64,000 bases of DNA from Candidatus Gastranaerophilales bacterium (GTDB lineage Bacteria > Cyanobacteriota > Vampirovibrionia > Gastranaerophilales > Gastranaerophilaceae): positions 620,001 to 684,000 of the forward strand of contig CALUYE010000001.1 of assembly GCA_944324945.1 (NCBI GenBank). Direction: 5' to 3'. The position numbers and the translations under genes are program-made. Below are positions 28,438-33,449 of this stretch, piece by piece (within the stretch, counting starts at the first letter, position 1; the number at the start of each line of letters is the position of its first letter). The notes under the pieces were generated by a model. It worked only from the letters and a program-made list of their open reading frames with translations, had not been told where the DNA came from and searched no databases.

Positions 28438-30354
28438 ATGTTATTGGAAGAAACAAAGGTATTTTCAAAAGAATACAAACAAACAATAAAAGAAGCACTT
28501 GATGCGCTAAATAAAAAGAATATGGCTTTAATTATGCATGGAGTAAGTTTCCCGTCGGAAAAAAGCGAAAATACGGGATTTGGTACTTATAATTCCCATG
28601 GCGCCAGAAAAGTTTTTGATTTTGCGCAAGGTGTATTCAGTGCAATTCAATTAGGGCCGTCAGGCAAAACAAAGCTGTCTGATTCTTCTCCCTATACAGG
28701 TACCGTCTTTTCAAAAAACCCTCTTTTTATCAATTTAAAAGATTTAACAACATCAAAATGGGATAAAATTTTATCAGAGAAAACTCTGGATAAAATTGTT
28801 GAGATGAATCCCAACAAAGATACAAATAAGGCAGCTTATATTTATGCTAACGAAAGTTTGGATTTAGCAAGAAATGAATTTTATAAGAATTTTAAAAGAA
28901 ATGCTTCAAAACATTTAAAGCATGAATTTGAAAATTTCAAAAAGGAAAATTCTTTCTGGTTGGATAAAGATGCTCTATATGAAGCTTTATCAATTGAAAA
29001 TAACAGTGATTACTGGCCTTTTTGGAAAAACGAAATCGATAAAAAATTGTTTGGCGATATAGATAAAAAAATTGCCCAAAAAAGAATAGAAGAAATTTCT
29101 AAAAAATACGAAGATGTAATTGAAAAATACAAACTTGAACAGTTTATTGTTCAAAAACAAAGCGAAGAAACGCTTGAATATGCTAAAAAACACGGTTTAA
29201 AACTGATTGCAGACAGGCAGGTTGCATTTTCAGACAGAGACAACTGGGCGTATCAGTCTTTATTTTTAGACGGCTGGTGTCTTGGCTGTCCTCCCGATTA
29301 TTTTTCAAAAGACGGTCAGGCATGGGGCTTTAGCGTTGTTAATCCCGATAAATTATTCAATCCTGACGGCAGCCTCGGTGAAGCGGGAATTTTGCTTAAA
29401 AAATTGTATACAAAAATGTTTAAAGAAAACCCCGGCGGGGTTAGAATTGATCACACGGTAGGCTTGATTGACCCTTGGGTTTATAAAAAAGGAAGCCTGC
29501 CTAAAGTTGAAGAAGGAGCAGGAAGACTGTATTCATCTCCAAATCATCCTGAGCTTAAACGTTATTCAATTGCAAAAGAAGAAAACATAAACAAAACTCC
29601 GATTGAAGGCAAGTTTGTAACACCTGACGATGAGCGCTGGATTGACAATTTGTCGGATGAACAAATAACGCTTTACGGCAGAATGATTGAAAAAATAGTA
29701 ATAGCATCGGCAAAAGAATGCGGTCTTGATAAAGATTCTATTATAGCCGAGGATCTTGGGACGCTTACATATCCTGTTGTTCAGGTTATGAAAAAATACG
29801 AACTTCAGGGAATGAAACTTGTTCAATTTGTTGTTCCGACAGAAGAAAGCCATCCCTACAGATGTAAAAATATTACCCCTAATTCCTGGGTAATGGTTGG
29901 AACACACGATAATGAACCGATAAGAATGTGGGCTTCAAAACTTGTAAACAAAGAAGAAGCTAATCCTTATATTAAAAATTTAATTGAAGATTTATGTTCT
30001 GAATTCGGAAATAAAGATGAAATGTGGCATAAGATGTACAGTGATGAAAAATTCTTTGCATTTATGAAACTTGTTGAATGCTTTGCATCGCGTGCAGAAA
30101 ATATTCAAATATTCTTTACGGACTTTTTTGGAATCAATGAAGTTTATAATACTCCCGGTACTTCAGGCGATCCTAACTGGACATTAAGATTGAATGATGA
30201 TTTTGAAAAAACTTATGTTGAAAAACTAAAAACAAATGAAGCCCTTAATTTGCCTTTGGTATTAATATATGCCTTTAAAGCAAGAGGATGGGAATTTTAT
30301 AAAAATTATCAGGAATTACTGGATAAATTGGAAAACCTTGTAAATGCAAAATAG
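28438..30354 (+). CDS. malQ: 4-alpha-glucanotransferase (amylomaltase, GH77)
   Basis: 638 residues from the ATG at 28438, preceded by AGGAGAGG; an in-frame TTG sits just before it. The enzyme transfers maltodextrin segments between glucans. GH77 catalytic residues are visible: nucleophile Asp338 in VRIDHTVG, acid/base Glu438 in IIAEDLGT, and Asp491 in VGTHDNEP. It is larger than the about 500-residue Thermus enzyme, with an insertion of about 130 residues near 120-250 that is Lys-rich and helical. The GlgP-like gene at 22.7 kb is the natural pathway partner. The next gene overlaps by 11 nt. Confidence 0.93.
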   Translation: MLLEETKVFSKEYKQTIKEALDALNKKNMALIMHGVSFPSEKSENTGFGTYNSHGARKVFDFAQGVFSAIQLGPSGKTKLSDSSPYTGTVFSKNPLFINLKDLTTSKWDKILSEKTLDKIVEMNPNKDTNKAAYIYANESLDLARNEFYKNFKRNASKHLKHEFENFKKENSFWLDKDALYEALSIENNSDYWPFWKNEIDKKLFGDIDKKIAQKRIEEISKKYEDVIEKYKLEQFIVQKQSEETLEYAKKHGLKLIADRQVAFSDRDNWAYQSLFLDGWCLGCPPDYFSKDGQAWGFSVVNPDKLFNPDGSLGEAGILLKKLYTKMFKENPGGVRIDHTVGLIDPWVYKKGSLPKVEEGAGRLYSSPNHPELKRYSIAKEENINKTPIEGKFVTPDDERWIDNLSDEQITLYGRMIEKIVIASAKECGLDKDSIIAEDLGTLTYPVVQVMKKYELQGMKLVQFVVPTEESHPYRCKNITPNSWVMVGTHDNEPIRMWASKLVNKEEANPYIKNLIEDLCSEFGNKDEMWHKMYSDEKFFAFMKLVECFASRAENIQIFFTDFFGINEVYNTPGTSGDPNWTLRLNDDFEKTYVEKLKTNEALNLPLVLIYAFKARGWEFYKNYQELLDKLENLVNAK

Positions 30355-31594
30355 ATATATAAAATTATTATTTATATTTTTATTCACATTCTTTATTTCG
30401 ATTAAAAGCGCGGATGCGTTTTCATTTCGAAATATGACACTTGATTTTATTCAAATGTCAGATACTCATATTACCACTGATAAAGAAGATACTTCATATA
30501 AAGCTCTTTCTTCGTCAAGCATTTTATTGGAGGATGCAATTAAGCAGGTAAATGATATCAAAGGGCTTGACTTTGTTTTGTTTACGGGTGATTTAGTCGA
30601 CGAAGCCAAAAATGAAAATTTTGACAGATATTATCAACTGTTAACAAAATTAAAATACCCTTCGTTAAATGCATTTGGTAACCATGACTTTTACGGAATG
30701 GAAAAAGATGAGGTTTTAAATATCGTTAAATCATATAACCCTAACTATATTTTTGATAAAACCTACTATGCTTTTTCTCCTAAAACAGACTACAGAATTA
30801 TAATTTTAGATGCTACAATGAAAGATTCATCAAACGGGGAATTAAGCGATGAACAGCTTAAATTTTTGGATGATGAATTGTCAAAAAATCAGGATAAAGT
30901 TGTATTAATTGCAATGCACCATGCATCGCTTGAGCCTTTTATCGCAAATGATCATTCTATTTTAAACGCTTCTAAGATTAATGAGATACTTGTAAAATAT
31001 AAAAATCCGATTATTGTGGTATCAGGGCACTATCATGCTTCAAAAATCAGAGTAATCGGGAATTTAACTTTTGTCTCTACTCCCGCTATGGTAACTTATC
31101 CTATGGCGTTTCGTCATATTAAAATAACTAATTTTAAAGACAGGGTAAAGTATGAATTTTATACAATACCGACAAAATTAGACGATATAAAAGAGCAAAA
31201 CAGACAAAGCGTAATATCTTATTCGATTCTTGAAGGAGGCGAAAAAGATAAAAATTATTCTTATACATTTTTGAAAAAACATCCGAAATCTCAAAGATAT
31301 AAGAGAAATAAAATTAAAAAAATAACCAAACAAACAAAAACAACCAAAAGAGAAATTAAAAAATTAACAAAACAAAAAACTGATAAACAAACAAAAAAAG
31401 AAGAAAAGAAGCTTGAAAAACAAAAGAAAAAAGAGCTTAAACAAGAACAAAAACAGCTAAAAAAAATTCAAAAAGATAATAAAAAACTTGAAAAGAGTAA
31501 AAAAATCGAAAAACCGAAAAAACCTTCAAAAATAAAAACTTGGTTTTCAAATCTTTTTAAGAAGAATAAAGCCACCACACCACAAGAAATTTAA
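30344..31594 (+). CDS. secreted calcineurin-like metallophosphoesterase with Lys-rich tail
   Basis: 416 residues with a signal peptide (residues 1-25, ending ADA). Metal-binding motifs run in order: MSDTHI (Asp-x-His), FTGDLVD, FGNHDF, AMHHAS and SGHYH, so a dinuclear metal site is likely. After the catalytic domain (about 300 residues) comes a tail of about 115 residues that is mostly Lys, Gln and Glu, probably disordered or cell-wall or nucleic-acid binding. The gene overlaps malQ by 11 nt and is followed 4 nt later by a paralogue. Confidence 0.88.
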   Translation: MQNRYIKLLFIFLFTFFISIKSADAFSFRNMTLDFIQMSDTHITTDKEDTSYKALSSSSILLEDAIKQVNDIKGLDFVLFTGDLVDEAKNENFDRYYQLLTKLKYPSLNAFGNHDFYGMEKDEVLNIVKSYNPNYIFDKTYYAFSPKTDYRIIILDATMKDSSNGELSDEQLKFLDDELSKNQDKVVLIAMHHASLEPFIANDHSILNASKINEILVKYKNPIIVVSGHYHASKIRVIGNLTFVSTPAMVTYPMAFRHIKITNFKDRVKYEFYTIPTKLDDIKEQNRQSVISYSILEGGEKDKNYSYTFLKKHPKSQRYKRNKIKKITKQTKTTKREIKKLTKQKTDKQTKKEEKKLEKQKKKELKQEQKQLKKIQKDNKKLEKSKKIEKPKKPSKIKTWFSNLFKKNKATTPQEI

Positions 31595-31598
31595 ATAA

Positions 31599-32507
31599 AT
31601 GAAAATAAAGCTTTTAAAAATTTTATTGCCTGTTTTAATAATAATACCGTTTTTGTTTTGCTTTTTTCTGTTTTGGCAAAAGAATAATGTTTTAAACATT
31701 ATTCATATAACGGATACTCATATTGAAAACAATAAATCAAGGGCTTTTGATGCGGTTGAATATTCACCTTTATTGTTAGAAGATGCGCTAAAAAGGATTA
31801 ATAATATAAATGGTGTTGATATAGTGCTTTTTGGCGGAGATTTAATAAATAATAAATCCAAAAAAAATCTTAATACATTCTATGATTTAATTAAAATTCT
31901 TAAATATCCTTATATTAACGCTTTTGGAAATCATGATTTTTACGGTTCAAACAAAGACGAAATGTTAAAATTAACAAAAAGATATAATGGTAATTATAAA
32001 TTTGACGATACTTTCTATGCTTTTGATATAAAAAATAACAGAATGATAATTCTTGATTCTACAATTAAAAACAGTAAAACCGCCAACGGGTTTATTGATT
32101 CTATGCAGTTTAAATTTTTTAAAAAAGAACTTGAAAATAATAAAAATAAGACAGTAATTATTGTATTGCACCATGCCCTGTATCCTCCTTATGAAGCAAA
32201 AAACCATGTTTTATTTAATGCATCAGAGCTAATTAAAGAACTTGAAAAATATAAAAACCCGATAATAATTCTTCAAGGACATTATCATGCTACAAAAATT
32301 ACAACTAAGGATAATATAATTTATGTCTCCACTCCCGCTATGGTAACTTACCCTATGGCATTTAGGAATATCAAGATTACAAATTATAAAAATAAAGTTA
32401 AGGTTGATTTTAGTTTTTATAGGACAAGATTGGATAAAATATGTAAAATCGATAAAGTAAAGCATGATAATATTAAAATTCTCGAGGGGGGGGGGGCTAG
32501 AAGATAG
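31599..32507 (+). CDS. metallophosphoesterase paralogue with possible frameshifted C-terminus
   Basis: 302 residues, clearly a paralogue of the preceding gene: membrane anchor or signal at residues 1-28, then ITDTHIE, FGGDLIN, FGNHDFYG, LHHALYPP and LQGHYHA. As written, the protein ends ILEGGGARR, directly after an 11-G tract (32486-32496). If the tract were one G shorter (or 4 G shorter), the frame would continue LEDRENSIIIYKNRY to a stop at 32542-32544, which resembles the paralogue (LEGGEKDKNYSYTF). The true end is therefore uncertain: slippage, phase variation or a sequence error are all possible. Confidence 0.82.
   Translation: MKIKLLKILLPVLIIIPFLFCFFLFWQKNNVLNIIHITDTHIENNKSRAFDAVEYSPLLLEDALKRINNINGVDIVLFGGDLINNKSKKNLNTFYDLIKILKYPYINAFGNHDFYGSNKDEMLKLTKRYNGNYKFDDTFYAFDIKNNRMIILDSTIKNSKTANGFIDSMQFKFFKKELENNKNKTVIIVLHHALYPPYEAKNHVLFNASELIKELEKYKNPIIILQGHYHATKITTKDNIIYVSTPAMVTYPMAFRNIKITNYKNKVKVDFSFYRTRLDKICKIDKVKHDNIKILEGGGARR
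32486..32496. repeat. homopolymeric G11 tract at the end of the second metallophosphoesterase
   Basis: Eleven consecutive G in an AT-rich genome, inside the last codons of the 31599-32507 gene. Long G tracts mutate in length by slipped-strand mispairing and are typical of phase-variable genes. Dropping one base restores a longer frame that resembles the paralogue's C-terminus. Confidence 0.85.
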
Positions 32508-32549
32508 AGAAAATTCAATTATTATATACAAAAATAGGTATTAAAATTA

Positions 32550-33449
32550 ATGAAAGACACATTTACACTTAAATTCAGAGGGGTTAGGGGCTCTTATCCC
32601 GTTGCTAAGAAAGAATTTTTAGAGTTTGGAGGTAATACCTCCTCGCTTGAAATTAATTGTTTTAATCAATTAATTATTCTTGACTGTGGAACAGGAATTA
32701 TTGATATAGGGGATAAATTGATTAATGATTCAATTTCAAAGCCTTTAGTACAATCAAACATTTTTTTAAGTCATATTCATCAGGATCATATTCAAGGATT
32801 GCAATTTTATAAGCCGCTTTTTGTTAAGGATGCAAAAATAAATCTTTTTGGTTTTCCGCCTGATGGCGAAAATCTTGAAGATTTATTTGAGACAATACTT
32901 TTTGATAAAGTTTTTCCTCTTAAATTAAGCGAAATTAAAAGCAATTTTAAAATAAATAATGTTGCACAAAATGAAATTGTTGTAATCAATCAAAACGGCT
33001 CAACAAAAATATACAATACAAAAGACAGTATTTTAATTAATGAAGACGATATTGTCGTTAGTTTTTATAAAACGGAACTTCATCCTAAATACGGTTCTTT
33101 ATGTATTAAAATTCAATACAAAACAAAAACCCTTGTTTATGCTACGGATATTGAATTTATTAAAGGAAAAGATGAAGGCTTTATTGATTTTGCAAAAAAT
33201 TGTGATGTATTAATTTCTGATGCTCAATATACAAATTCAGACTATAACAACCCTAAAAATCCTAAATACGGCTTTGGACATTCGACTTTTGAAATGGCGA
33301 TTGATGTTGCCGATTTAACAAATGCAAAAAAGCTTTTCTTTTTTCATTATGATCCTTATTACGATGATAATAAACTTAAAAATTTACAAACGAGTTTTGA
33401 AAATGATAGAATATTGTTTGCAAAAGAAAATTTAGAAATTGAAATATGA
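32550..33449 (+). CDS. MBL-fold metallo-hydrolase
   Basis: 299 residues, cytoplasmic. The metallo-beta-lactamase signature SHIHQDH gives His75, His77, Asp79 and His80. Further ligands are likely in ELHPKYG, YATDIE and GFGHST. The family includes phosphodiesterases and RNases with this architecture (the GGNTSSLEI start is common among PhnP-like and cyclic-nucleotide phosphodiesterase-like members). The substrate is not clear. It lies 42 nt after the G11-containing gene and overlaps the next gene by 4 nt (ATGA), placing it in one operon with TPR proteins. Confidence 0.82.
   Translation: MKDTFTLKFRGVRGSYPVAKKEFLEFGGNTSSLEINCFNQLIILDCGTGIIDIGDKLINDSISKPLVQSNIFLSHIHQDHIQGLQFYKPLFVKDAKINLFGFPPDGENLEDLFETILFDKVFPLKLSEIKSNFKINNVAQNEIVVINQNGSTKIYNTKDSILINEDDIVVSFYKTELHPKYGSLCIKIQYKTKTLVYATDIEFIKGKDEGFIDFAKNCDVLISDAQYTNSDYNNPKNPKYGFGHSTFEMAIDVADLTNAKKLFFFHYDPYYDDNKLKNLQTSFENDRILFAKENLEIEI

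Follow-up and report, generated by a model that had tools for sequence, protein, structure and literature searches.

The window analysed here is a 64-kb stretch of a Candidatus Gastranaerophilales genome (the window genome), in which two calcineurin-like metallophosphoesterase genes lie in tandem ahead of a gene for an MBL-fold hydrolase. A long G tract occupies the 3′ end of the second phosphoesterase gene (Table 1).

Table 1. Coordinates of the features at the locus and of the other G11 run in the window genome
Feature	Position	Strand	Remarks
First tandem phosphoesterase copy, 416 aa	30344-31594	+	Conserved genus orthologue (~61-73% identity across the genus); tail long and Lys-rich; lacks a G tract
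Calcineurin-like metallophosphoesterase, second tandem copy, 302 aa as assembled	31599-32507	+	PF00149, E 4.2e-17; catalytic motifs intact
G11 homopolymer, candidate slippage site	32486-32496	+	Exact 11-base run read from the window sequence
Alternative-frame tail LEDRENSIIIYKNRY and stop	32497-32544	+	Out of frame in the 11-G assembly; homologous to EKDRxxSFxYxKK, the tail conserved in the genus
MBL-fold hydrolase, downstream gene	32550-33449	+	PF12706; RNase Z-like matches below cut-off
Second G11 run of the window genome	C5:20392-20402		In a radical SAM protein; in frame as assembled

The phosphoesterase pair and its G tract

The product of the second copy scored 63.6 bits against PF00149, above the cut-off of 21.5 bits, and its alignment contains the metal-binding motifs DTH, GD, GNHD, HH and GHYH. 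Structure prediction for the 302-aa protein gave a membrane helix at residues 2-29 followed by the phosphoesterase fold to about residue 275. The tail, residues 280-302, was predicted with low confidence, and in a two-sequence prediction the tail region was of low confidence in both tandem copies. The nearest solved structures were the phosphohydrolases 2zo9 and 2dxl. Although the catalytic domain and metal motifs are common to this protein and to class III cyclic-nucleotide phosphodiesterases and GpdQ-like phosphohydrolases (2zo9, 2dxl; NF008359), the window protein has an additional membrane anchor and tail and fell far under the family cut-off. Assignment as a 3′,5′-cyclic-AMP phosphodiesterase (NF008359, CpdA) was not supported, as the score of 71.8 bits compares with an equivalog cut-off of 225 bits.

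The two copies are 49-50% identical to each other. No close orthologue of the second copy was found in 57 related genomes, in which its best match had at most 49% identity, and a search of the whole collection for conspecifics gave just one distant match from Bacteroidia. Being far less like its relatives than is the upstream copy, the second gene is, to judge by these identities, a divergent extra copy. One relative (G026, locus L073) also has a tandem phosphoesterase pair, and we considered whether relatives carry an orthologous tract. None was found: the second copy lacks a close orthologue in these genomes, and in G026 the divergent member of the pair is the upstream one, sharing just 40% identity with the second copy of the window. 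Its position and low identity suggest that it and the window pair (30344-32507) arose by separate duplications or were rearranged.

A reading made from the sequence only had placed a run of 11 G residues in the second copy, and inspection of positions 32486-32496 established that the run contains exactly that number. Elsewhere in the window no G or C run exceeds 6 bases. For G/C runs of at least 11 bases, a first-order Markov model predicts 0.0007 per window and 0.02 for the whole genome of 1.92 Mb, which has 2; these are also its only G/C runs of at least 9 bases, with none of 9 or 10. Scans around the tract found no unusual RNA structure (z = +1.07) and no promoter exceeding chance.

Reading frames across the tract

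As assembled, with 11 G, the 302-aa product terminates in ILEGGGARR, the GGGARR ending of the sequence-only reading being the last part of the LEGGGARR that closes the ORF at 31599-32507. With one G less the tail reads GGGLEDRENSIIIYKNRY. The earlier translation of the 10-G version also held, as it gives a 314-aa form with LEGGGLEDRENSIIIYKNRY and a stop at 32542-32544, and the first copy carries LEGGEKDKNYSYTF at the matching place, in keeping with the proposal that the shorter tract would mirror the paralogue. The coordinates likewise bear out the compact operon spacing claimed for the 10-G frame: 5 nt separate its stop from the ATG at 32550, compared with 42 nt between the phosphoesterase stop and this ATG at 11 G. 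Tracts of 7, 10 or 13 G all lead to ...GLEDRENSIIIYKNRY, and at 6, 9 or 12 G the protein stops inside the glycines. As stops occur in all three frames within about 20 codons, the long Lys-rich tail of the paralogue is unattainable at any G length.

The claim that a one-base-shorter frame restores a paralogue-like C-terminus was upheld by a profile (HMM) built from 30 homologues together with the window paralogue. Versions of the protein with different tract lengths scored 364.8 bits (G7), 361.2 (G10), 360.9 (G13), 356.2 (G11), 355.7 (G8) and 355.4 (G12). As a control, 4000 tails of similar length taken from random window positions were scored against the same profile; none of the 4000 scored as well as G7, 5 as well as G10 and 7 as well as G13, while 701 scored as well as G11. 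These results show that the frame shared by 7, 10 and 13 G is the homologous, ancestral one. Single-copy orthologues in the genus have a tail of type LAGYEKDRETSFTYRKK after the phosphoesterase domain, with the motif kept. The best fit to the family was obtained with 7 G, which is in the same frame as 10 G and has no extra Gly, suggesting that the tract expanded by about four bases.

Two features expected of a slipped-strand (simple-sequence) phase-variable locus are found at 32486-32496: a homopolymer within or beside an ORF that far exceeds chance length, and a change of one base in either direction that switches the product between conserved and non-conserved forms. Here the toggling is confined to the tail. 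All frames retain a complete catalytic domain, which precedes the tract, so a switch would alter the tail and the gene spacing rather than turn the enzyme on or off.

Poly-G tracts and mismatch repair in related genomes

The genomes compared are of low GC content and 1.7-2.3 Mb in size, which together with their gene content suggests Gastranaerophilales (Melainabacteria). Across the order, 211 of 286 genomes contain a G run of at least 10 bases, and some have hundreds of 10-base windows. Within the genus of the window genome, 18 of 28 genomes lack any run of at least 9, and four have about 15-30 tracts each. Pfam matches of the tract genes in this genus were to radical SAM, FkbM methyltransferase, polysialyltransferase-like, glycosyltransferase, AlgX-like, hexapeptide transferase, pyruvyl transferase and DNA methylase families, and tracts in related genomes often lie in surface-polysaccharide and pilin genes.

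We examined the surroundings of 160 tracts and classified the 148 that were away from locus ends. Forty-seven were in frame inside an ORF, 48 were out of frame, meaning that an intact long continuation lay one base away, and 24 were unclear; sequencing errors at homopolymers also yield out-of-frame tracts, which counts against a switch. The other 29 lie near 3′ ends, as does the tract of the window gene. Thus 48 of the 95 classifiable tracts inside ORFs were out of frame, whereas of 1599 positions drawn at random from these loci 88 were out of frame and 1511 in frame (Fisher p about 1e-30). The sample consists of genomes partly picked as tract-rich, tracts that share a genome are not independent of one another, and a single pilin-rich genome (G183) contributes 18 of the 48 out-of-frame cases. 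Without that genome the counts were 45 in frame and 30 out of frame, and the contrast was still strong (p = 4e-17).

Of all observations in the analysis, the one that points most directly to slippage is a pair of tandem homologues in genome G136, in which a C9 tract is in frame in one gene and a C10 tract at the same site is out of frame in the other, with flanks that are 100% and 92% identical. This pair (L170:4042-10700, contig C3) encodes about 880 aa after the tract and has no Pfam match.

Two other groups of loci were observed during this survey. In G183 (loci L146-L165) there are at least 12 type IV pilin-like genes with a conserved FTMAEILLSLTIIGVVAAITLP, for example L150:3053-4180 (+) and L154:2093-3073 (-). 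Each has a G13-14 run some 10-30 codons after the start, nearly all of them one base out of frame, and several contain dispersed-repeat-like sequence between the tract and the pilin motif. Contig C5 of genome G027 (L096:2001-7784) has two near-identical tandem genes, each lying after a G11 run and out of frame by one base. Beyond the tract the first encodes 1143 aa, without a Pfam match, and the other at least 667 aa.

We also considered whether the tracts result from a loss of mismatch repair. MutS was present in 28 of 28 genomes of the genus, while MutL exceeded the cut-off in 0 of 28 (controls were positive), and genera g37 and g41 of the family likewise lacked MutL. A G10 run was present in 198 of 250 MutL-positive genomes compared with 13 of 36 in MutL-less lineages, which are few and not independent. 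Since long tracts were commoner with MutL than without it, its absence does not explain them and was rejected as their cause; loss of MutL in the genus might raise slippage. A weak MutL match in the window genome was discarded, as the ORF concerned, of 328 aa, looks like a sensor histidine kinase.

Proposed replication slippage and competing explanations

We lean, if only slightly, toward the interpretation that the G11 run is a real, expanded and slippage-prone tract at which one-base replication slippage toggles the frame of the phosphoesterase tail. The tract would have originated from two adjacent glycine codons in the fast-diverging second copy of a membrane-anchored phosphoesterase. A one-base slip would then keep the ancestral end at 7, 10 and 13 G and lose it just past LEGG at 8 and 11 and at 9 and 12, such that the assembled 11-G form would be the cut-off state of the tail. 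Slippage would toggle the last ~15 residues along with the spacing to the next gene. We infer that the population is polymorphic in tract length and that the tail is of consequence to the protein. The occurrence of poly-G tracts throughout the family, with in-frame and out-of-frame states, makes slipped-strand switching more plausible, and phase variation at 32486-32496 is plausible. Two further findings count against a switch: the genus of the window genome is mostly tract-free, and the tract changes only a tail of low predicted confidence, while switching by phase variation usually concerns an entire protein.

An unlikely but not negligible explanation is neutral decay, in which a tract in a redundant second copy grew by chance slippage, its length drifts and loss of the last 15 residues has no functional consequence. 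The species-specific, fast-diverging character of the gene is consistent with decay, as are the stops that deny it the Lys-rich tail at every length and the position of the remaining tail outside the confidently predicted fold. However, the catalytic motifs have stayed intact over 300 codons, the 15-codon tail of the ancestral frame is still recognisable and free of stops, and similar tracts recur in the family at large, many of them in surface genes.

Several sequencing platforms are prone to errors in long G runs. The true tract might be fixed at 10 G (or 7), with the ancestral tail intact and the extra base due to a homopolymer-call or assembly error, and the fit of the 10-G frame to the family and the 5-nt spacing that it yields agree with such an error. 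We nevertheless regard it as decidedly improbable. A one-base error makes no long run in a 31% GC genome, where a true run of 10 would still be far above expectation (0.004 per window under the Markov model), and the best-fitting ancestral length of 7 means that the run probably expanded regardless. In addition, the other G11 tract of the window genome is in frame as assembled.

Transcriptional slippage is best documented for A/T runs. That RNA polymerase slips on DNA fixed at 11 G, producing both tails in each cell in a set ratio, is very improbable: homopolymers are known to give rise to heterogeneous mRNAs, Buchnera being an example (discussed in PMC2831843), and both frames are open up to a nearby stop, but homologues lack the G run at the matching place that a programmed site would require and the RNA structure nearby is unremarkable.

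Replication slippage at the tract would have well-known counterparts in homopolymeric contingency loci (PMC3025981, PMC2831843). Those of Campylobacter jejuni (PMC3025981) and Helicobacter pylori (discussed in PMC2831843) likewise consist of G runs of about 9-13 inside ORFs of low-GC genomes, where a change of one base in either direction shifts the frame, and relatives of the window genome resemble them further in that surface-polysaccharide genes carry such tracts and occur as both ON and OFF copies. In contrast to these species, the window lineage is apparently unrelated to them and its genome has just two tracts of at least 9 bases; the window tract, known here from one assembled length, is at the 3′ end of its gene and affects only the tail. 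The survey of 99 genomes by Orsi et al. (2010) found poly-A/T tracts of up to 7 bases to be overrepresented and poly-G/C tracts generally not (PMC2831843). Homopolymers as hypermutable on/off elements in coding genes are common to that study and ours, whereas G runs of 9-14 are abundant here, in a family that the survey does not name (“cyanobacteria” is absent from its text). Our full-text search for literature on phase variation by poly-G tracts in Melainabacteria or Gastranaerophilales found none; a paper on flagellin diversity came up for Melainabacteria, and the 15 best matches of a broader search dealt with other topics. This absence is weak evidence given that most subscription papers were outside the coverage.

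Considered alone, the tract is of modest interest, as a switch that may affect the C-terminal tail of one protein in a single species, but it looks like an outlying case of the slip-prone G-run switches that are abundant in the family. A whole family of small-genome bacteria has dense poly-G tracts whose frame states resemble ON/OFF switches, often in surface genes. The Gastranaerophilaceae, a family probably of the gut and placed among the non-photosynthetic relatives of cyanobacteria, probably run a large and, as far as our searches reach, undescribed poly-G contingency system, with the window tract as an outlying member that retunes the tail of an enzyme. Genomes would differ widely in this system, some having no tracts and others several tens or more, with hundreds of 10-base windows in the richest, and the genes involved would include capsule and glycan genes, FkbM methyltransferases, DNA methylases and the G183 pilin-like repertoire gated by G13-14 runs. 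If confirmed, it could explain surface variation of these little-cultured bacteria under phage or immune pressure, and gene calls in assemblies of the family would often represent one captured phase.

Both G11 tracts of the window genome lie in members of paralogous sets, the phosphoesterase pair and a radical SAM family. The latter has 12 clustered matches in this genome compared with 0-2 per relative. The clusters are located at L072:9757-12599 (contig C5) and at 299111-303698 of contig C2, and one member carries the second G11 run.
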